Below are positions 5,786-15,043 of a stretch of DNA of 64,000 bases, piece after piece. The DNA lies in NCBI RefSeq assembly GCF_000423405.1, contig NZ_KE384013.1, positions 183,705-247,704 on the forward strand. Direction: 5' to 3'. This DNA comes from Mesonia mobilis DSM 19841. Its GTDB lineage: Bacteria; Bacteroidota; Bacteroidia; Flavobacteriales; Flavobacteriaceae. The translations under genes and the position numbers were made by a program. The number at the start of each line of letters is the position of its first letter. Position 1 is the stretch's first letter. The notes beneath the pieces were generated by a model, which had not been told where the DNA came from, did no database searches, and saw only the letters and a list, made by a program, of their open reading frames with translations.

Positions 5786-5869
5786 GCTCGGGTGGTGGAA
5801 TTGGTAGACACGTTGGACTTAAAATCCAATGAACATTAGTTCGTACGGGTTCAAGTCCCGTCCCGAGTA
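5786..5869 (+). tRNA. tRNA-Leu (TAA)
   Basis: A class II tRNA of about 84 nt with a long variable arm. Acceptor GCTCGGG/CCCGAGT (G-U at the first pair), anticodon stem TTGGA/TCCAA with loop CTTAAAA, anticodon TAA, T-arm GGTTCAAGTCC. Its 3' 20 nt are the start of the 68 bp repeat that bounds the integrated element, so this gene is the integration target and remains intact. Confidence 0.97.
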
Positions 5870-5917
5870 CTTTAACCCTCTTTAATCTTACGATTTTAGA
5901 GGGTTTTTTGTTTTTAG
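5850..5917. repeat. attL: left 68 bp direct repeat
   Basis: Identical over 68 bp to 11640-11707. It contains the 3' 20 nt of tRNA-Leu and the downstream terminator hairpin. The crossover should lie inside this identity block. Confidence 0.92.
5874..5909 (+). terminator. Rho-independent terminator after tRNA-Leu
   Basis: AACCCTC and GAGGGTT form a 7 bp stem followed by a T-run. It lies within the attachment repeat, so the same terminator is duplicated at 11664-11699 and also insulates the far end of the element. Confidence 0.85.
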
Positions 5918-5927
5918 TTATCAAGTA

Positions 5928-5946
5928 TGTACGCTAATCTGTACGC
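5928..5946. promoter_or_regulatory. Left arm-type repeats TGTACGC x2
   Basis: Two direct TGTACGC copies with a 12 bp period lie just inside attL. The right end has two copies with an 11 bp period and a third inverted core. Placement near both ends fits integrase arm-binding sites; this is inferred. Confidence 0.55.
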
Positions 5947-6068
5947 AACATTAAAATTAAGAGCAATTTTAAATGATTCTACTTAAAATTTTTATTTCAA
6001 AAGTGAAGTTTTACTAAGTTTAGATTCTCAATCTTAGAATTAATTTTATAAGTTAAACTTGCAGTTAT

Positions 6069-6410
6069 TTAGGTGCTTAAATTTATTCCGTTTCCTAAAT
6101 TAATTATATTGATAGGTTTTTCTAATTTCTGTAAAGTTTCAATATTCGGTATTGGTGCTGAAACTTCGTTATCTTCACTAAAATCTATAAAATTAACGTG
6201 TATTAAATTGGGTAATAAATTTTCTAAGTCTTCAGTTTTATAAAATCGTTTTCCTTTAACTGTATCATAATCAATTTTTCCCTTTACAACCTCATCGCCA
6301 ATACCACGATAAAAATAACCCTTTGCGCTTTCATTATGAGTAAAAAAAATATAGGCTTTACTAATGTCTTCAATTTCTTGTAACAATTTTAATTCTTGCT
6401 TAATTTCCAT
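6069..6410 (-). CDS. Hypothetical protein, 113 aa (element)
   Basis: Not recognised. It is a mostly soluble, mixed alpha/beta-looking protein with an N-terminal amphipathic helix (EIKQELKLLQEIEDISKAY) and an acidic stretch near residue 80. No signal peptide or membrane segment is seen. It is the last gene before attL and its start overlaps the stop of the upstream gene by 11 bp, so the two are probably translated from one message. Function unknown. Confidence 0.65.
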   Translation of the reverse strand: MEIKQELKLLQEIEDISKAYIFFTHNESAKGYFYRGIGDEVVKGKIDYDTVKGKRFYKTEDLENLLPNLIHVNFIDFSEDNEVSAPIPNIETLQKLEKPINIINLGNGINLST

Positions 6411-6714
6411 TTTCTTGTATTTTTTTACTTAGTTCTTTAATACGCTCATGGCGTTCTTGTGGTGTCATATTTAAAATATCTTCCAGTTTGTTCGTTGCCT
6501 TTAATTCCGTTCGGTTTAATTTAGGTAGTGAGTATTCCAATAACTTAGTAAACGTGTCTATACGTTCCTTTGGTGTTAGTTCCCGTAAGTCTTGTAATAT
6601 TTGCTCCCATTGCTCACTAAGTAGGTTTTCTATCTTTTCCCTTAGTTGCTTAGTGTCTTTGTTTGGTGTTCCTTTTTTTCGTCCCCCGTATTTTTTGCCT
6701 GTTGTATTTGCCAT
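6400..6714 (-). CDS. Small basic protein with GGRKKGTPNK motif (element)
   Basis: A 104-aa protein starting with a Gly/Lys/Arg-rich GGRKKGTPNK motif of the kind found near the N-terminus of many phage- and element-encoded small proteins, where it may act like an AT-hook. The remainder is predicted helical (QLREKIENLLSEQWEQILQ) and ends with TPQERHERIKELSKKI. Similar short proteins occur in Bacteroidota mobile elements and sometimes beside terminase genes, but no terminase large subunit is present here. A DNA-binding role is inferred only from the basic motif. Confidence 0.7.
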   Translation of the reverse strand: MANTTGKKYGGRKKGTPNKDTKQLREKIENLLSEQWEQILQDLRELTPKERIDTFTKLLEYSLPKLNRTELKATNKLEDILNMTPQERHERIKELSKKIQENGN

Positions 6715-6747
6715 AACTATTATTAACTATTTTAGTTTAAACCATTT

Positions 6748-7986
6748 TTAAAATAAAGTAGGTTGTTTAAGATTATGTTTTTCAATGTTATTAAAATACC
6801 TATTCCGTACTTGTTTAGATAATTTAGAATAAATACTTTTTTCATATCTGTTTGCTTTCCCTGTAAGTAAGGTTTCAATTAGAAAATTATAATAGGTTGG
6901 ATTTTCTTTTTCTAATACTTTAAACCCTGTATTTGAAAGTAAAAAACTATCTTCTTTTTGTACTGAAATATCTACTCCAGTAATTGGGCAAATTCGATCT
7001 TTTTTTTGACTGCTTTTTTTTGAGGTGTTAGGCGTAATGTTTAACCCTATACTTGAAGTGTTAATTGTTACGCCATTGGGTTTTTTGAAAAGTCGGTTAA
7101 TAGTTACGCCTTTTAGGTTAATTTCTCGCCTAATTTTTTGGTGTAAATTCTTAGAATAATTCATTATAAAACCTTTCAATTTCTTTTTATGCTTATCTCT
7201 ATTTTTCGGCTTCAAATTATAAAGCCAGTATCTAGGATTAGAATAGTTGTTTAAGGTTTCTTTTTGGCGTTTTGTGAAGTTCTTTTTGTTAATTGTATAA
7301 TCGTAGTAAACCACCTCATCAAAACGTTTTAAAAGTGATTTTAACGCATTTTCTAAGGTTCTTTGGTTAATGTCTTCAAAGGTTTTAATATTTAAATTTT
7401 TAAGGTACTCGGCTTTAGTTACTTTTAGTTCAACTCTTACGGTATGTTTACTAATTCCGAATTGTCCAGACTTATTATAAATTTTAATGAAGTATTGTTG
7501 GTGTTCAACTTGTGCGAAATTATTTTCAAAACGATATTCAAAGTTTTTACCATTATGGTATAATAACCCTTTTAGAAATAGTTTAGGTTCAAAATTTGGC
7601 TGTGTATTTACGCCAAACTCTATGTTTTGAAATTGCATTTGTTGAGGTTCGCAATCAAATAATACTTCTAAATGCGTTCTTACTTCTAAGATTTGACTAA
7701 TTGTAAACTGGTTGCCGTTAAACCCTTTGTAAGTTTCCTTTTGCTTCTCGTTATAATTAGGGGCTTTTTGGTTTTTTATTGAATTGTAAAGTTTATGTAT
7801 GCTGCCCGAAAATAAAATTAAACCACTATCATAAATTACGATCTTACAAAAGTGATAGTATGCTGTGTGCTTAGTAGATAAAACGCCTGTTTTTTCTGAA
7901 ACTTCAGTTTTAAATTCCAGTTGTGGCAAATTATACAACCGTTTAAGGTCGATACCTAGTAATAATATTTTAGTGAAATCAATCAA
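6748..7986 (-). CDS. Possible phage/plasmid replication initiator (element)
   Basis: A 412-aa protein with an N-terminal half rich in beta strands (SGLILFSGSIHKLYN, QNIEFGVN, FIKIYNKSGQ, HTVRVELKV) that resembles in layout the II/X family of rolling-circle initiators of filamentous phages and small plasmids. The C-terminus has a Cys-containing CPITGVDISVQKED block and a basic helical tail. No textbook HUH or Tyr motif can be asserted by eye, so the function is tentative. GVTIN occurs twice near residues 293 and 307. The start is a TTG at 7986: an in-frame TAA lies 15 bp upstream. It is followed by the two small genes in the same direction. Confidence 0.7.
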   Translation of the reverse strand: MIDFTKILLLGIDLKRLYNLPQLEFKTEVSEKTGVLSTKHTAYYHFCKIVIYDSGLILFSGSIHKLYNSIKNQKAPNYNEKQKETYKGFNGNQFTISQILEVRTHLEVLFDCEPQQMQFQNIEFGVNTQPNFEPKLFLKGLLYHNGKNFEYRFENNFAQVEHQQYFIKIYNKSGQFGISKHTVRVELKVTKAEYLKNLNIKTFEDINQRTLENALKSLLKRFDEVVYYDYTINKKNFTKRQKETLNNYSNPRYWLYNLKPKNRDKHKKKLKGFIMNYSKNLHQKIRREINLKGVTINRLFKKPNGVTINTSSIGLNITPNTSKKSSQKKDRICPITGVDISVQKEDSFLLSNTGFKVLEKENPTYYNFLIETLLTGKANRYEKSIYSKLSKQVRNRYFNNIEKHNLKQPTLF

Positions 7987-8052
7987 AAGAAAATCTTATA
8001 TTTGTGAATAGGTAATGCGTTGCCAGTATTGCCAACATTTGAACAAAATAAA

Positions 8053-8079
8053 AGAGGGGTTGAACGCCCTCTTTTTTTG
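8053..8079. terminator. Bidirectional-looking terminator inside the element
   Basis: AGAGGG (8053-8058) and CCCTCT (8067-8072) form a 6 bp stem with A-run and T-run flanks. It lies directly downstream of the 138-aa gene on the minus strand and should separate it from the initiator-like gene. Confidence 0.75.
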
Positions 8080-8080
8080 T

Positions 8081-8497
8081 TTATAAACCTTTTTTAATAA
8101 GTTGTTGTAGTTCTTCTTTGTTCTGTGTGTAAAAGTCGTTGTAAACGTCTATGATTAACTTTTTAGCATTTTCATAGAAATAGAATAGAAGTAGATTAGT
8201 AGGCTTTATTTTTCCCTTTTGTTTTACAGGTATATCGCCATAATAAACCATTGGCGTTGAGGTTGGTTTAAGTCCTGTAATTGCTTTACTCCATTTCTTT
8301 TGGTTGGTATCTTTTCCTTTTAGCCAGTAGTCAACATCTTTGGCTTTAGAAAATTTACGGTCTTTAGAAATGTTAATCATCTCATTTAATTGGCGGTTGC
8401 CGTTTGCAACCTCAACAATTAAATAATGTTTTACTTCTTTGTAACGTTCGGGGTTTTGCACCTCGTAAACGTGGCGTATTGGTGTGTGCGTTGCCAT
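8081..8497 (-). CDS. Hypothetical protein, 138 aa (element)
   Basis: Not recognised. The protein is basic, soluble and without signal peptide. It has a central KDVDYWLKGKDTNQKKWSK segment and a C-terminal helical part ending in ELQQLIKKGL. Its start lies 5 bp below the stop of the excisionase-type HTH gene, so the two form a two-gene unit ended by the terminator at 8053-8079. A role in excision or copy control is possible from position only. Confidence 0.7.
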   Translation of the reverse strand: MATHTPIRHVYEVQNPERYKEVKHYLIVEVANGNRQLNEMINISKDRKFSKAKDVDYWLKGKDTNQKKWSKAITGLKPTSTPMVYYGDIPVKQKGKIKPTNLLLFYFYENAKKLIIDVYNDFYTQNKEELQQLIKKGL

Positions 8498-8502
8498 TGG
8501 TT

Positions 8503-8772
8503 TTAGTTTTGAAGTTCTACAAATGCGCTTTCTACTTCTTTACGTTTATAGTAAACACGTGCGCCAATACCAATGGGTTTTAAGATACCCTTTTTGCTCC
8601 AGTTGTGAACGGTGCTAATATCTACACTAAGCATTTTTGCGACCTCGTTACGGGTTAAATACTTAGTAGGTTCTTTGGGTTTAAACTCCTTTTTGAGTTC
8701 TTGAAGTTGTTGTTTGATGCTTGCAAGGTCTTGCAATACATTTTCGGGTAAGGTAATTTGTAAAGTTTGCAT
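8503..8772 (-). CDS. Excisionase-type helix-turn-helix protein (element)
   Basis: An 89-aa protein with a coiled-coil-like N-terminus (LASIKQQLQELKKEFK) and a C-terminal MerR-like winged helix of the HTH_17 class: YLTRNEVAKMLSVDISTVHNWSKKGIL, then the wing PIGIGARVYYKRKEVE. Proteins of this size and fold act as recombination directionality factors or small regulators in Bacteroides integrative elements. Here it lies between the RteC-like gene and the initiator-like gene, which fits an Xis role. Excisionase and simple transcription regulator cannot be told apart from sequence. Confidence 0.85.
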   Translation of the reverse strand: MQTLQITLPENVLQDLASIKQQLQELKKEFKPKEPTKYLTRNEVAKMLSVDISTVHNWSKKGILKPIGIGARVYYKRKEVESAFVELQN

Positions 8773-8843
8773 AACGATTTGTTTTAATGTTATGCAACAA
8801 ATATCTATTTGGTTCTTTCTGTTTAACGGTAAGTTACGTTTAC

Positions 8844-9482
8844 CTAACGTCTATTTTTTTCTTTCTCTAATGAAATGAAATTGTATAAAGATGTTTTTAG
8901 GTCATTTAGAAAAAGTGTTTCACTACCAACATTTCTATTTTTAATATCCTGTATTGTTTTGTCAGGGTTTTTAATTTTGATGTTTAAAAATTGAGAAAGT
9001 GAGGCGATAACATCTTTTTGAAGTCCTTTGATACTTCCGTTCTCTATTAGTGCTTTTGTTAGTTCTATGAATTGGGTTTGTGTGCCTTGCCATTTCAATT
9101 TACTTACAGGTATTTGACTGGTATTATTATCACTTGAAATTCTAGATTTCTTAATTTTAAGTTGGTCTAAAATATTTTCAAAAGTTATTTCTAAATTTTT
9201 GCGTTTAAGTTCATTTGTACCATCTTCATTTTTGTACAAATCTTGTATTTCGGGTATTATATAAACCCCGTAATGATTTGCTTCATTGTCAACCTCATAT
9301 AAACCAAGTTCAGGTATATTTATTATTCTGACATTTTTTAAGCAATGTTTGTAATGATTTTCTAATTCATTTATAAATTGCTTTTTACTGCAATCGATAT
9401 ATTTTTTTTTGTAATTGATAAAATCATTTTCAAAATGATTATTAAAATCTTTTAAAGTAGTACGGGTTTTAATTAAACTCAT
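8844..9482 (-). CDS. RteC-like regulator (element)
   Basis: A 212-aa protein whose C-terminal half resembles the RteC domain: KLKWQGTQTQFIELTKALIENGSI, then a helical stretch with FLNIKIKNPDKTIQDIKNR and FLNDLKTSLYNFI. In the Bacteroides conjugative transposon CTnDOT, RteC activates the excision genes. The N-terminal half (about residues 1-115) is basic and Tyr-rich and was not recognised. Its position just upstream of the excisionase-type gene on the same strand matches the RteC-then-xis logic of CTnDOT, although no tetracycline-response genes are present. The assignment rests on remembered domain pattern, not an alignment. Confidence 0.7.
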   Translation of the reverse strand: MSLIKTRTTLKDFNNHFENDFINYKKKYIDCSKKQFINELENHYKHCLKNVRIINIPELGLYEVDNEANHYGVYIIPEIQDLYKNEDGTNELKRKNLEITFENILDQLKIKKSRISSDNNTSQIPVSKLKWQGTQTQFIELTKALIENGSIKGLQKDVIASLSQFLNIKIKNPDKTIQDIKNRNVGSETLFLNDLKTSLYNFISLEKEKNRR

Positions 9483-9522
9483 TTGAACAATTTTTTTTTG
9501 CGTTGCCTTTTTTTAAGTATTA

Positions 9523-9903
9523 TTAGTTTGTATGTGTTAGGTTTTTGAAGTCGAAAATTTTACATTCATATTCCGTTAAAATTTCTTGTGCAATTTCTTT
9601 AGAGGTTTTACGCTGTCTTGCAGGTTTAGAATAATCGGTTTTAAGGTGTTTCTCGTATATGTTGTGTATTTCGTCTTTTAAAAAATCGTTGTCTTCATTT
9701 ATCATTAATTTGCTAAGTATTCCGTAACCATTGTAATTAGTTATCGGTGCGTTTCCTGAATAAGTATTCTGCGGATCTGCTGAACCTTGCATAAATTCAA
9801 ATCCTTTACTCATACGGTCAAATATGATGCTGTCATTTAAAATCATTAATGCAATTGCATGGGTTGTTTTGAAGTGTTCTTTAATTTGTTTTTGATATGT
9901 CAT
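9523..9903 (-). CDS. Hypothetical protein, 126 aa (element)
   Basis: Not recognised. It is a soluble protein with an N-terminal helical part (KQIKEHFKTTHAIALMILNDS), a Gly/Asn-rich middle (SGNAPITNYNGYGIL) and a basic, charged C-terminal half. It lies between the 46-aa Lys-rich gene and the RteC-like gene, all on the minus strand. Function unknown. Confidence 0.65.
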   Translation of the reverse strand: MTYQKQIKEHFKTTHAIALMILNDSIIFDRMSKGFEFMQGSADPQNTYSGNAPITNYNGYGILSKLMINEDNDFLKDEIHNIYEKHLKTDYSKPARQRKTSKEIAQEILTEYECKIFDFKNLTHTN

Positions 9904-9915
9904 AATAATTAAATG

Positions 9916-10056
9916 TTAGGATTGTTTTTTTCTTTTCTCATTTACGTTTTTCATTGCTATTAGTAGTAATCTTTCACTTCTAGTTAATGGTCTTTTTAAT
10001 ATTCTTCTTTTCTTTTTAAAAGGTCTTTTTTTTTCTTCTTCACTAAGTTTTTTCAT
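9916..10056 (-). CDS. Small Lys/Arg-rich protein, 46 aa (element)
   Basis: A short ORF, MKKLSEEEKKRPF onward, in which well over a third of residues are Lys or Arg. The ATG lies 1 bp beyond the integrase stop codon on the same strand, so it would be translationally coupled to the integrase. That position, plus the downstream gene in the same direction, is the support for a real gene. The charge suggests nucleic-acid binding; nothing more can be said. Confidence 0.5.
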   Translation of the reverse strand: MKKLSEEEKKRPFKKKRRILKRPLTRSERLLLIAMKNVNEKRKKQS

Positions 10057-10057
10057 A

Positions 10058-11431
10058 TTAATGGCTTGATACGTTTTTGATAACGTTTAATTGAGGTTCT
10101 TTGTCTTTTTTAATTTTTTGTAATTCGTAGAAATCGGCTATTTGTTGCGCATAGTCTAAAGAGTTTTTACCAATGTATTTTAAAAACATTTTTTCGGTAC
10201 TGTGGGCGGTTATTTGCATAATAAGGGCGGTTGGTAATGTACCGTAAAGATTAGTTGCAAAAGAACGTCTGCAAACGTGTGTACTAATTAATTCGTGTTT
10301 AGGGTAAATTCCTGTGATGGTTCTTTTAACTCCTTTTTCAATATAGTTGCCTTTCTCGTCTTTAGGTATTTCTTTTCCGTTCTTGTCAACCATTAATATT
10401 TTACTTCCTTTGGTGGGGTGGTCTATTCCTGCAACTTTGCAAACTTCTTTAAAATAGTTGTTAAGGTTTTGAATAGATATTTTTCTAGGTAAACCATTAC
10501 TAAGAATTTCTTTTGTTTTATCCAGTATAGGAATAGTTATATTCTTGCCTGTTTTCTTTTGTTTTAGTTCTATGACTTCTAAACCTTGACGTATAACAAA
10601 ATTGCTTTCTGTTATCTTTAATAAGTCGCTGCCCCTTTGCCCTATGTGGCAACCAAATAAAAGCCATTTACGGGCGTTTTGTAATGTGGGGTTTATAATA
10701 TGTGTTTTTTCTATTTTTTCTAATTCCTGCGGACTTAAGTATATGATATGTTCTTTTTGAGGTTTTCCGCCTTTCACTTTATTTAATTGTGTGCTTGTTT
10801 CTATTCCGTCAATTTCAGCATCTCGACAAACTGTTTTTAAGTCATCTACTTTTTTACGTGCGTAACTTTCTGAATAGTATTGTTTATTAATTAGCCAGTT
10901 TAAAAAGTTTTTGCCAAAACGTATATCTACATCTTTAACCTTGAAAGGGTTTTTTCCTTTTTGGTATTTCTCAATAATTTTTAAAAGATTTTTGTAGGAA
11001 TTAATACGGCTTGTAGATAAGCCCAAGCCTTTTTTGTTATTTTCTCTAACATTAGCGGTATCAATAACATAAGTAATGCAGTCGGCTATTAAATCACTTC
11101 TTTTTTCTTCTTTTACAGGATTGAAATAATCGTGAACGGTGTTTTTCAGCCAGTCTTTATTTTCGGGGTTTGGCTTTTCTTTTTTGTAAACTTTCAAAAT
11201 ACTGTCTTCTAATTCTGAAAGTTCATTGTTTACATCTGAAATAGTTTTTTTATCGGATGCGGTTACGTTCCTTTTTTTGTGTCTTGTCTTTTCCTAAAAT
11301 TCCTTAGTTACTTCCAATTCTGTTTTTGCTTGAAATTGGAATTTTTCCCCTGTGGTGTTTTTATCCTGTAAGCGGATAGTTAAGGGTGCTTTTTTTCGTG
11401 TAGATCGGTATAAAAAATATACGGTTGCCAT
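10058..11431 (-). pseudogene. Tyrosine recombinase/integrase interrupted by an in-frame amber codon
   Basis: From the ATG at 11431 the frame reads MATVYFLYRSTRKKAPLTIR, a typical Bacteroidota integrase arm-binding N-terminus, and stays in one frame through 10058, except for a TAG at 11294-11296 (codon 46). The break falls after VTKEF, where relatives carry Trp (KEFW/KDYW), so a single TGG to TAG change explains it. Downstream are the core-binding domain and the catalytic domain with Arg in HIGQRGSDLL, HVCRRSFATNL (H-x-x-R) and a late Tyr in MFLKYIGKN. A truncated 379-aa product could start at TTG 11197. Either the gene is inactivated, the stop is read through, or the shorter protein is used. 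Confidence 0.88.
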
Positions 11432-11451
11432 AAGTTGAACATTTGAACACT

Positions 11452-11459
11452 CAAATATA
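11452..11459 (-). promoter_or_regulatory. Candidate -7 box of the integrase
   Basis: On the minus strand TATATTTG matches TAnnTTTG, 21 bp from the ATG at 11431. No clear -33 TTTG is seen at 19 bp. The GTACGC repeats lie just upstream, so integrase binding could repress its own promoter. Confidence 0.4.
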
Positions 11460-11469
11460 ATTATTTTGG

Positions 11470-11506
11470 CGTACGATTTTTAATTTTTGTACGCAATCTG
11501 TACGCA
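11470..11506. promoter_or_regulatory. Right arm-type GTACGC repeats
   Basis: An inverted GCGTAC (11470-11475) and two direct TGTACGC copies (11489-11495, 11500-11506; 11 bp period) lie upstream of the integrase. They mirror the pair at 5928-5946. An AT-rich block with repeated TTCAATTT (11511-11550) follows and may bend the DNA. Confidence 0.55.
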
Positions 11507-11639
11507 AAAGTTCAATTTAATGCAATTTTATTCAATTTGCTTCAATAAGATTAATTTTTAAAATAGTTTGTAATGTGTTGATTATGTTGATGTTTTAGTT
11601 TGTTTTGTAGGGGTTTTGAAAATTTGATGAATTGTAATA

Positions 11640-11707
11640 TTCAAGTCCCGTCCCGAGTACTTTAACCCTCTTTAATCTTACGATTTTAGAGGGTTTTTTG
11701 TTTTTAG
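11640..11707. repeat. attR: right 68 bp direct repeat
   Basis: Identical to 5850-5917. It holds the last 20 nt of tRNA-Leu and the terminator hairpin but no complete tRNA. It marks the right edge of the integrated element. Confidence 0.92.
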
Positions 11708-11923: not shown

Positions 11924-14900
11924 TTACGAATTTTCTACAATAGCGATTTCTTCCTCGGTTAGGCCGTAAAGCTCGTACACCATTTGGTCGATTTGGTGGT
12001 CCAGCTGGTTGATTTGTGTTTGTAGTTCTACGGCTTTTTTCTTGTTGTCTTCAAAAAGCTCCATCCACTCAAACTCATCTTTTTTGGTGAGTTTTGGGAT
12101 TTCTGGTTGCTCTTTTTTACGACGCTCACGGTTTGCTGCATTAATAGCTTTATTAAGTTCTTTGATAAACTCACCAAAATCTAACTCGTGCCAGTTTTGG
12201 AGTTTTTTAGAGAGTTTTTCTACCGGAAATTGTGATAATAGATAGTTTTGGAATTTTTCTGTTTTTTCTGAAAACTGTTTGTTCAAGTTAATTAACTGAT
12301 CTACTTTGTCTGAAAATTCATACTGTATTCTTGGGTTAACAAACTTAATAGGTATTGTTTTAAGTTGATATGCATAAATATCTTTATTAAGAAAAAACTT
12401 TAAGAAGATATAATTTATAGTTGAAGAGTTCAAAACTGCTAAAATGAATTTCAGATTAAAGTTTTCATTTTTTTGAATCCCAATTCTAAGTGTATTTGTA
12501 CATAACATAGATTTGTCATCATACGCAGCAATAATTCTTCTTCTTAAAGAGAGATTTCTTATTCTCTGTATTAAAATTTTTGGCTGAATATATATTTCTT
12601 TATTCTTGAAGGTAGAGATGTTATTTTCAAATTTGATAAAACGATTGGAAAAAGTGTAGCTATATCTTGATAAATCTCTTCCAACAAGAAGCTTTTCATG
12701 ATCTGTTTTTAAAACTTCTGAAATTTTATCAGAATTCCCACCGATTTCAATACCTCTTGGGAGATCTAGTATGGAATCAAGAATTTCAGCATTTTTAAAT
12801 AGTTTTTCTAATAATAGGAAATCTCTCTCTTTACAATTAATTTTAAACTCATAATTATTCAATTCATTCCAAAAAAACTTTTGACCAATAAAAGTTATAT
12901 TGTTTTCATCGAAATCTTTCCTGTTTTTAATAATTAAGATACTTCCTTTGTTGTCGATGACTTTCCTAAACCCTATTATTGCCACATCTAAATTTGCATC
13001 TTCAAAAACCGTTTCTCCTAGGTTTACTAGTGTATTTATTTTAGTTTTTGATAATAGCATTTTTCTTAATACAATAAAATCTTTGTTACTTAAAAAAGTA
13101 TTCGATGTAATAAAAGAGAATACACCTTTATCTCTCAATATTTTGTATGACTTTTCAATAAAAAGACCATATAAATCAAACTGACCAATTGCTGTTTGGA
13201 ATTCAGCTTTAAAAAAAGTTTTGCTTTTATTATCAATTTCTTTTGTACTCAAATACGGCGGATTCCCAATCACCACATCAAAACCACCTTTATCAAAAAC
13301 TGCCGGGAATTCTTCTTCCCATTTAAAGGCTTTATCGCCGGCAACGCTTTTAGCGTCGATCAAAGAATTACCACATTTAATATTGCTGCTTAGATCGTTT
13401 AATTTTCTACGCGGTTGCGCGGTACGTAACCAAAGCGAAAGTTTGGCAATTTCTACACTTTCTTCGTTAATATCTACACCGTAAATATTGTTTTCTAAAA
13501 TGGTATTTTCGATATCGCTAAACACGATCGCGCCACCCAAAACTTTGGCTTTAAGCTCGTCGATATAGGCGTGTTCTGCAATAAGAAATTCCAACGCCTG
13601 GTTTAAAAATGCACCCGAGCCACAGGCAGGATCGCAAATAGTAAGCTGCAATAACCAATCTCGATAAGTGTCGAGCGTGGCAAGCAACTTCTTTTTGGTT
13701 GCGGTGTGTGTGCCTTTTTTTACTTCAAAATATTCTTCTTCCCGAAACTCGAGTTCGGTTTTCTTTTCTTCACAAAGCTTACCTACGGTATTTTCAACAA
13801 TATATTTGGTAATATATTTAGGGGTGTAGAAAACACCGTCTTTTTTACGTTTACTCTTCTGCTTATCAAAATTATCACCTTCAATTTCAGCATTTACACT
13901 TTCAATTTCATTTAGCGAATTTTCAAAAATATGTCCCAGAATATTTACATCAACCTGACTTTCAAAATCGTAAGCCGAAAGTTTTGCCGTGTGTTTATAA
14001 AGCAATTCATCATTGATCTCTAAAAGATCTAAAATCGCATCGGGTTTAAAAAGTCCGCCATTATAAGCAAAGATCTCTGCTTTTTTATCGGTGCCTTTTC
14101 GGCCGGTGTCCAGATAACTAAAATAAAGTTTAAAGCGCTCGTAAAGCGGTTGGTTTACATCCAGGTCTTTAAGCTTGTTCCAATCTTCGATGATCTGTAA
14201 AATGGCGTTGGGCGGTAACAGTCCGCGATCTTCAGCAAAAAAGATAAACAGAAAACGATCGATTAATTTCTGTGACTTTTTAAATAAAGTGAGCTTTACG
14301 TTTTTTTCGAGGCGCTGTTGTTCCTGTAATTCCTCAGGAGATCTCTCGAATTCGCTCGAGATGACATTCGATGCGCCAGCTTTTAATTTTTTAGCATTAT
14401 TTCTCACTAAATCGCGATACAATTCACGCTTAAAAACCGAGTAATCTTTATAAAAACCTTTGGTAATCTGGCTTTCTTCTACCAACGAAGCTTCTTTAAT
14501 TTCTAAAGGTAAACCGCTTAAAAAATTATCCTGCTGCAAGCATAAATATAAGAGGGCAAAGCGATCTTCGGTTAAACTAAACAGATCGAATTCTAAGAAC
14601 TCGGTCGCATCGTTAATATAAAATCGAAGTTTTTCGAAATTGGAAGTAATTACATATACACAACCTTTTTGGTTGGCTTTATAATCGAACGCCTGCTGGC
14701 GAATCCCTTCTAAATGTTTGGTGTTGGTACCTTTAAGTTCGATAACGCCTAAGGCTATATTTTCTTTTAAAATGGCACCATCGGCTTTGCGCGAGTTGGT
14801 TTGATTTTTATACTCGGCTACCAGATTATAGTTTGCGTTAGGCTTCATTGTGTAGTCTAAAACCTTTACAAACAACTCGGTAAGAAAAATACCCTGATAT

Positions 14901-15043
14901 TCTTCTTCTTTCGAGCTTTTTATATTTTCCTGAATTTTAGGATCTAAAAAGTACTTGCTAAACTTTCTATACGCCTTAGAAATCTGGTTTTGGTCTTGGG
15001 CTTTAAGGTATTTTTTTAAAACCGAAGTTTGAAATAATGCCAT
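11924..15043 (-). CDS. Type IIG restriction enzyme/adenine methyltransferase (Eco57I-like)
   Basis: A 1039-aa single-chain restriction-modification protein. The N-terminal nuclease shows a PD-(D/E)xK core: Asp88 in RKADGAI and Glu102-Leu-Lys104 in VIELKGT. The gamma-class N6-adenine methyltransferase follows, with motif X GVFYTPKYITKYIV, motif I DPACGSGAF (about 468) and motif IV NPPY (about 591). Residues about 640-930 form the target-recognition region; the DNA there (12300-13240) is visibly more AT-rich than the methylase core, as if swapped in. The C-terminus ends in paired helices (LQTQINQLDHQIDQMVYELYGLTEEE). Residues about 227-237 are encoded by a hairpin repeat. It lies next to attR but outside the element. 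Confidence 0.93.
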   Translation of the reverse strand: MALFQTSVLKKYLKAQDQNQISKAYRKFSKYFLDPKIQENIKSSKEEEYQGIFLTELFVKVLDYTMKPNANYNLVAEYKNQTNSRKADGAILKENIALGVIELKGTNTKHLEGIRQQAFDYKANQKGCVYVITSNFEKLRFYINDATEFLEFDLFSLTEDRFALLYLCLQQDNFLSGLPLEIKEASLVEESQITKGFYKDYSVFKRELYRDLVRNNAKKLKAGASNVISSEFERSPEELQEQQRLEKNVKLTLFKKSQKLIDRFLFIFFAEDRGLLPPNAILQIIEDWNKLKDLDVNQPLYERFKLYFSYLDTGRKGTDKKAEIFAYNGGLFKPDAILDLLEINDELLYKHTAKLSAYDFESQVDVNILGHIFENSLNEIESVNAEIEGDNFDKQKSKRKKDGVFYTPKYITKYIVENTVGKLCEEKKTELEFREEEYFEVKKGTHTATKKKLLATLDTYRDWLLQLTICDPACGSGAFLNQALEFLIAEHAYIDELKAKVLGGAIVFSDIENTILENNIYGVDINEESVEIAKLSLWLRTAQPRRKLNDLSSNIKCGNSLIDAKSVAGDKAFKWEEEFPAVFDKGGFDVVIGNPPYLSTKEIDNKSKTFFKAEFQTAIGQFDLYGLFIEKSYKILRDKGVFSFITSNTFLSNKDFIVLRKMLLSKTKINTLVNLGETVFEDANLDVAIIGFRKVIDNKGSILIIKNRKDFDENNITFIGQKFFWNELNNYEFKINCKERDFLLLEKLFKNAEILDSILDLPRGIEIGGNSDKISEVLKTDHEKLLVGRDLSRYSYTFSNRFIKFENNISTFKNKEIYIQPKILIQRIRNLSLRRRIIAAYDDKSMLCTNTLRIGIQKNENFNLKFILAVLNSSTINYIFLKFFLNKDIYAYQLKTIPIKFVNPRIQYEFSDKVDQLINLNKQFSEKTEKFQNYLLSQFPVEKLSKKLQNWHELDFGEFIKELNKAINAANRERRKKEQPEIPKLTKKDEFEWMELFEDNKKKAVELQTQINQLDHQIDQMVYELYGLTEEEIAIVENS
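14338..14365 (-). repeat. GTCAT-hairpin repeat inside the restriction enzyme gene
   Basis: On the coding strand it reads GTCAT, stem CTCGA-loop-TCGAG, then AGATCTC, matching the design of the intergenic copies. It is translated in frame as VISSEFERS. It is a rare example here of the repeat tolerated within a protein. Confidence 0.6.

Follow-up and report, generated by a model that had tools for sequence, protein, structure and literature searches.

The question raised by this locus is what kind of mobile DNA has settled at the 3' end of a tRNA-Leu(taa) gene in Mesonia mobilis DSM 19841, and by what means it could move. The window, that is, the whole 64,000-nucleotide stretch analysed here (contig NZ_KE384013.1, positions 183,705 to 247,704), holds at this point an insertion framed by an exact 68-bp direct repeat. 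A preceding sequence-only reading had described it as a discrete integrated element and had left three options, namely a minimal mobilizable element, an integrated plasmid, or a phage satellite. Its anatomy of integrase, tRNA, and excisionase is ordinary. Because a recurrent family is built on its unrecognised Rep_trans-like replication initiator, it is more than a one-off island. In the reading that we favour, at a probability of about one half, it is a small satellite-like ('hitcher') element in its integrated state, replicated by a rolling circle, with a tailed phage as its helper.

The two repeat copies lie 5790 bp apart from start to start, and the insertion measures 5858 bp when both are counted. 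Each copy consists of the final 21 bp of the tRNA and 47 bp with the terminator-like hairpin of the tRNA, and ARAGORN found the tRNA whole on the left side only, as had been noticed from the sequence. No third copy of the 21-bp tRNA part was present in the window, even at three mismatches (mean of 0.00 in shuffled controls), and the host draft genome (59 contigs) contained a single copy of the element. An empty tRNA-Leu site, which the sequence-only reading had proposed to look for in relatives, was found in the congener G404. There, a single 68-mer runs straight into the right flank of the window, and the locus is about 97% identical to the window over the 971 bp ending with the tRNA. Far from the repeat and genes being present in all relatives, the whole element was absent from the 15 other genomes of the genus searched (16 including its own), three of which gave short matches (62-312 bp, 66-78% identity). 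It is thus shown that a discrete element integrated at the tRNA-Leu 3' end and generated the 68-bp repeat. Given perfect repeats and an empty site in so close a congener, the insertion appears to be recent. Among the 15 congener loci, the 68-bp stretch was identical in G404 only, matched at 83-96% over 60-68 bp in six, matched over 21-31 bp at the tRNA end only in seven, and had no match in L071. Since identity was confined to G404, the element may have come last from a close relative, or the repeats may have been equalised later.

The gene expected to replicate the element encodes a 412-aa protein, here called Rep, for which nothing meaningful was retrieved from Pfam, PHROGs, NCBIfam, PADLOC, or PDB sequences. 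For 16 relatives, Pfam and PHROGs gave no family, and the PF02486 (Rep_trans) profile matched neither the window Rep nor any of the 16. As naming by sequence failed, the structure was used. The structure model fits the crescent, TATA-binding protein (TBP)-like fold of RepDE and RepSTK1, and D3, E123, K168-x-Y170-x-K172, and R184-x-E186 are conserved in two Rep alignments (A1 and A7). Compared with the active-site residues named in PMC4797284, Rep has the tyrosine in a Y-x-K motif, the R-x-E motif, and three metal-binding acids. The prediction that the protein is a divergent Rep_trans-type initiator is well supported, and Rep represents a Rep_trans-like family missed by the Pfam, PHROGs, and NCBIfam profile libraries. 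The gene set had been said to fit no nameable family, which agrees with this. An HUH Rep like those of filamentous phages was also weighed but not adopted, as the model fits the Rep_trans/TBP-like fold.

A search of 397 genomes of the bacterial family recovered Rep from 29, and a profile search of 395 genomes from the whole phylum recovered it from 20, its own genome being included in both counts; five of the 29 (G288, G138, G319, G164, and G030) had stop codons inside the best Rep match. We compared 22 loci, drawn from 20 of the 28 other family genomes, a Kordia metagenome-assembled genome, and Flavobacterium sp. 11. An integrase was within reach of Rep in 20 of these and an HTH_17 (helix-turn-helix) relative in 18 (19 and 16, respectively, by tblastn, with clustering adding the integrase of L081 and the HTH genes of L078 and L081). 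Neither gene was found at L090 and L096, and L082 (at a contig end) and L093 lacked the HTH gene. At 11 of the 22 loci, Rep and the integrase were bracketed by an exact repeat of 16-66 bp overlapping a tRNA 3' end, which gave elements of 5.3-11.8 kb from start to start in genes for tRNA-Leu (three anticodons), -Arg, -Phe, -Asn, and -Met. A Gly-Leu tRNA pair like that of the window was the target of three elements (G252, G054, and G125).

The cargo of the relatives was scanned in ten large genes from nine loci, picked by size. PADLOC recognised a type IIG restriction-modification (RM) gene in L079 (E 2e-269), Tmn in L097 (9e-91), and PDC-S49 (1e-68) and PDC-S02 (6e-13) in L095, gave weak matches in L087 and L091, and had no match for four of the ten genes. 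With Pfam, L087 also showed nSTAND3, L091 NTPase and TPR domains, L092 a PF00144 gene of the serine-hydrolase type, and L100 a domain resembling that of tape-measure proteins. When ten other genes of middle size from relatives were scanned, an SDH-type protease and an RteC match (just under the cut-off) were obtained and no relaxase. Scans of the genes of the window element with Pfam, PHROGs, NCBIfam, and PADLOC recognised no cargo.

A chassis that joins a divergent Rep_trans-type initiator to a tyrosine integrase and an HTH protein of the AlpA/excisionase type, and that recurs, often at tRNA genes, with changing cargo including anti-phage genes, is therefore well supported. It can be searched for in other genomes as the combination of integrase, HTH_17, and Rep_trans-like Rep, and through it defence systems have a vehicle in this bacterial family. 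The family of small elements is widespread and apparently previously undescribed. The best descriptions of satellites and mobilizable islands come from Proteobacteria and Firmicutes. The open-licence papers searched, some represented by excerpts, contained no description of this element family and no such element of Flavobacteria besides the partly comparable Riemerella islands (excerpts of PMC9745183).

The relatives of Rep in viral sequence collections point towards phages. Members of the Rep family are present in IMG/VR contigs with tailed-phage genes: from ten chosen genes scanned, we recognised a terminase, portal, and head gene in L101, a terminase and head gene in L102, a terminase in L103, and a baseplate gene in L106. 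Rep directly follows an HTH gene in L103 and L108. In a tree of 25 Reps, the phage Rep of L101, on a long branch, grouped with those of small elements (support 98/96), and four other viral contigs formed a clade of their own. Scans of viral contigs with the window Rep alone and with the sub-alignments A3 and A6 gave no relative. Three Rep queries retrieved one unannotated record (MT835707) from the phage collection and none from 72,556 plasmid records.

The 104-aa protein encoded next to Rep supplies a second link. It belongs to PHROG 15261, and in MW202462 and MW202710 members of this group are encoded by genes that run into the beginning of the large terminase gene; MW202544, of the same length as MW202462, likewise carries a homologue at this place. 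The best match among genomes, in G086 (45% over 62 aa), has no PHROG match of its own; its gene overlaps that of a large terminase, and the surrounding region is prophage-like. Homologues thus occupy the position of a small terminase in three phage records and one prophage-like locus, and they occur in other contexts too; one other element (L083) has a copy of the gene. From this gene order, the protein may be packaging-related and is a candidate small-terminase-like protein. The element had been described as lacking conjugation, capsid, and packaging genes. For conjugation and capsid families this holds, as Pfam, PHROGs, and NCBIfam gave no convincing match among the element genes; for packaging, the 104-aa gene may be an exception.

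In the favoured satellite-like reading, the integrase and the HTH protein would excise the element as a circle, of which Rep would nick one strand through Tyr170, with a metal held by D3, E123, and E186. Rep would then drive rolling-circle synthesis to circles and concatemers, and the element DNA would leave the cell inside particles made by a tailed phage acting as helper, the 104-aa protein perhaps steering its packaging, before re-integration at tRNA-Leu. A broader and more tentative proposal, to which we give somewhat less credence, is that these elements form a new family of Bacteroidota phage satellites. Such minimal tRNA islands would excise and replicate by a rolling circle, relying on a divergent Rep_trans-like initiator that tailed phages also have. 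They would redirect packaging, in this element at least, by a small-terminase-like protein of their own, and would ferry anti-phage systems (type IIG RM, Tmn, and STAND NTPases) between hosts.

Several observations weigh against a phage-borne satellite. Neither a helper phage nor a circle or particle of the element was seen. When helpers were looked for in the host genome, as had been proposed, the terminase profiles PF03237 and phrog_9 found nothing, and phrog_2, which matches 11 of 14 control genomes as well, gave one weak match. The host genome does contain a conjugative type IV secretion system (T4SS) cluster of the TraG/K/M/N type, and the element encodes RteC. The 104-aa family is promiscuous, with a large terminase recognised beside one of its 12 other genome places (in all, three neighbours of the other 11 being scanned), and Bacteroides phage BF1-TP2 has a relative whose surroundings, over the 5 kb displayed to each side, include no annotated terminase. 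The mapping of Rep residues to RepDE rests on order and spacing, not superposition. The integrase of the window copy is interrupted by a TAG codon, and some relatives are broken too, with a split integrase and Rep in L091 besides the stops in the Rep match of five genomes.

RteC is a regulator of conjugative elements, and NBU1 uses a tRNA-Leu site. Together with the T4SS cluster of the host, the RteC gene gives weight to the strongest alternative, an integrative and mobilizable element (IME) whose Rep would be a MOBT-like relaxase (perhaps also the replication initiator), whose circle would be mobilized through the co-resident T4SS, and which RteC would control. MOBT relaxases are related to Rep_trans proteins (excerpts of PMC6499999 and PMC5704250), and NBU1 is among the known Bacteroidetes mobilizable elements (PMC5704250, in part). 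However, MOBT relaxases have an N-terminal HTH domain according to the excerpt of PMC6499999, whereas the window Rep starts at the catalytic fold. The few Bacteroidetes mobilizable elements found encode canonical relaxases, as far as the excerpt of PMC5704250 describes them; Pfam and NCBIfam scans found none in the genes of the window element. The Pfam Relaxase (MOBP) profile, searched in the host and 20 related genomes (other MOB families being covered by the general Pfam and NCBIfam scans), had no match in the host and matched 11 places in seven of the related genomes, none inside Rep loci. No origin of transfer was identified, and the Rep family is shared with tailed-phage contigs. We therefore regard mobilization as the less likely course and favour the satellite over it, at odds a little under two to one, both having survived from the three options first listed.

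The third of these options, an integrated plasmid, or else a self-sufficient replicon moving only by transformation or vesicles, is improbable. Rep_trans initiators are plasmid proteins in Firmicutes (PMC4797284), and the element is small, with no transfer genes named by Pfam or NCBIfam; against this stand the empty search of plasmid records and the anatomy of integrase, HTH gene, and end repeats common to the tRNA-integrated relatives. Less probable still is the remnant of a larger prophage that lost its structural genes and is now an inert island: the in-frame stop in the integrase and the occurrence of Rep in tailed-phage contigs, directly after an HTH gene in two, would fit it, but the compact layout recurs at tRNA genes in many genera, so that the small form constitutes a separate lineage, and the perfect repeats and the empty site in G404 indicate a recent insertion.

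A phage-inducible chromosomal island (PICI) is defined by terS or another packaging-redirecting gene and by a primase-type replication gene; the present element has a Rep_trans-like initiator in place of the latter. Nor is it a complete prophage, as capsid, portal, and large terminase had no convincing match in the ten pieces scanned with Pfam and PHROGs. The satellite-like reading finds its closest parallel in phage-inducible chromosomal minimalist islands (PICMIs), which replicate by a rolling circle and are packaged as a concatemer and which are likewise small islands with an integrase, an AlpA-type HTH protein, a replication gene, a defence gene, and no capsid genes (excerpts of PMC10803314). 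By the model given there, in which AlpA is PF05930 or PF12728, the element has the integrase (PF00589) and AlpA (PF12728) components. In contrast, no element gene encodes a DUF3987/DUF5906 primase, its place being taken by the Rep_trans-like initiator, and PICMIs lie beside fis, unlike the window element in tRNA-Leu and its relatives, often in tRNA genes. The family described here also differs in its Bacteroidota hosts, and its helper is a proposal.

The MOBT elements (ICEBs1, Tn916, ICESt3, and streptococcal mobilizable elements) are likewise integrated, and the enzyme on which they chiefly depend has the fold and active site of Rep_trans proteins (excerpts of PMC6499999 and PMC5704250). They differ in that the element Rep lacks the N-terminal HTH and PF02486, no coupling protein or T4SS is found in the element, and the phylum is another one. 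The archaeal viruses with RepSNJ2/Rep-Arvir also integrate, use a divergent Rep_trans-like initiator after excision, and had this initiator found by structure where sequence failed; however, these are pleolipoviruses with a different motif around the tyrosine (excerpts of PMC13107129). NBU1 resembles the element in its tyrosine integrase, directionality factor, and Bacteroidota host and differs in encoding a MobP relaxase (PMC5704250, in part), of which none was found here; a canonical IME would also have a relaxase gene. The islands of Riemerella anatipestifer, also of the Flavobacteriaceae, are integrase islands, one of which (50K) lies beside a tRNA with 19-bp repeats. Unlike the window element, it is a defective RAP44-like prophage; a 10K island is mentioned as well (excerpts of PMC9745183).

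The features of the element are collected in Table 1. All recognised genes are encoded on the minus strand in the order integrase, 46-aa open reading frame (ORF), 126-aa, RteC, HTH_17, 138-aa, Rep, 104-aa, and 113-aa, so that the integrase stands at the far end, as had been observed. The RteC-like and excisionase-type genes of the sequence-only reading were recovered by profile.

Table 1. Features of the element and its insertion site, in window coordinates
Feature	Position	Strand	Basis
tRNA-Leu(taa), complete; 3' end is the insertion point	5786-5870	+	ARAGORN
attL (left attachment site), copy of 68-bp repeat	5850-5917	+	single copy in G404
Candidate integrase arm sites, left end: TGTACGC(T/A)A twice, 12 bp apart	5928-5948		repeated words
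113-aa protein, no meaningful family match	6069-6410	-	ORF
104-aa protein, candidate small-terminase-like (packaging)	6400-6714	-	some homologues directly 5' of, and overlapping, phage large terminase gene
412-aa Rep_trans-like rolling-circle initiator (predicted), TTG start	6748-7986	-	conserved residues and structure model
Hairpin with GTTCAA loop: candidate double-strand origin or plain terminator	8050-8075	-	
138-aa protein	8081-8497	-	blastp cluster of six members among 18 compared elements
89-aa HTH_17 protein, AlpA/excisionase type	8503-8772	-	PF12728, E 5e-11; phrog_66
212-aa RteC-family regulator	8844-9482	-	PF09357, E 4e-12
126-aa protein	9523-9903	-	ORF; relative in L094
46-aa ORF, uncertain	9916-10056	-	ORF
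Tyrosine integrase, TAG-interrupted	10058-11431	-	PF00589 and PF13102
Candidate integrase arm sites, right end: GCGTACGA and TGTACGCAA twice, 11 bp apart (11488, 11499)	11469-11507		
attR (right attachment site), copy of 68-bp repeat	11640-11707	+	exact match to attL

The description of the integrase needed correction, as one in-frame TAG (11294-11296) divides the gene into a 45-aa N-terminal piece and an open remainder of 411 codons. The frame is otherwise open from 11479 to 10061. A frameshift was considered and rejected, as both pieces share one frame with the TAG between them. In 15 aligned relatives (421-486 codons; L091, with its split genes, was left out), the integrase is uninterrupted. 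As the genome is a draft of 59 contigs, the TAG is possibly a sequence error; barring such an error or an integrase acting in trans, this copy may be unable to excise.

The word TGTACGCNA occurs twice at the left end, twice at the right end, and once more in the 64 kb, where 1.1 copies were expected overall. A word of 11-22 bp common to both ends, at a roughly similar distance from att, was found in 11 of 12 delimited elements (reached by 0-6 of 200 shuffles for nine elements and by 10-12 of 200 for L089 and L092) and was absent from L091. These words look like candidate integrase arm sites.

Just 5' of rep lies the hairpin AAAAGAGGG-CGTTCAAC-CCCTCTTTT (8075-8050). Such a GTTCAA hairpin was clear in three of 21 elements scanned, the other two being L098 and L099, which share its position and loop, the stem of L099 being different. 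A weak 5-bp hairpin precedes rep in L094, and weak GTTCAA hairpins occur elsewhere too. The hairpin could be a nick site, a terminator, or a product of chance, and a shared-word search of eight elements gave no convincing common origin sequence. The C-terminal domain of Rep (residues about 345-412) varies, being of a CPITG type in the window and of a zinc-finger-like C-x2-C...C-x3-C type in L086, L088, and L095; fragments resembling the C-terminal part alone are present in G057 and G396.

The T4SS cluster of the host is compact and lies at about 448920-455662 of contig C1 (10921-17663 of L137), with matches to TraG, TraK, TraM, and TraN. It is of the Bacteroides/Flavobacterium type, and TraG alone passes the NCBI cut-off. 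The Rep element of G288 (L078 13503-13897) is near a tmRNA gene, where no exact 16-bp att repeat was found. The Rep relative in MT835707.1 (5419-6099), from human faecal samples, is 29% identical to the L095 Rep over residues 35-261 of the latter. In the IMG/VR contig L100 (70-1560 and 3133-4569), a tape-measure-like gene (PF10145) stands beside Rep and a tRNA-Leu(tag).

Partial extra copies of the att/terminator sequence were found 3' of tRNA-Leu in congeners (L073 1698-1756 and 2094-2150, L074 1393-1451, and L064 2263-2307), which suggests repeated insertions at this tRNA. A type IIG RM gene (11924-15043, minus strand) adjoins attR on the outside. It was not seen at tRNA-Leu in the loci of the remaining 14 congeners, although one of these loci stops about 320 bp past the tRNA. 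We rejected it as cargo of the element, as it lies outside the repeat and is shared by G404 (73% aa identity) with its empty site. The L079 element carries a relative of this gene as cargo (62% over 784 aa), and the window gene may thus be a leftover of an older insertion at the same hotspot.

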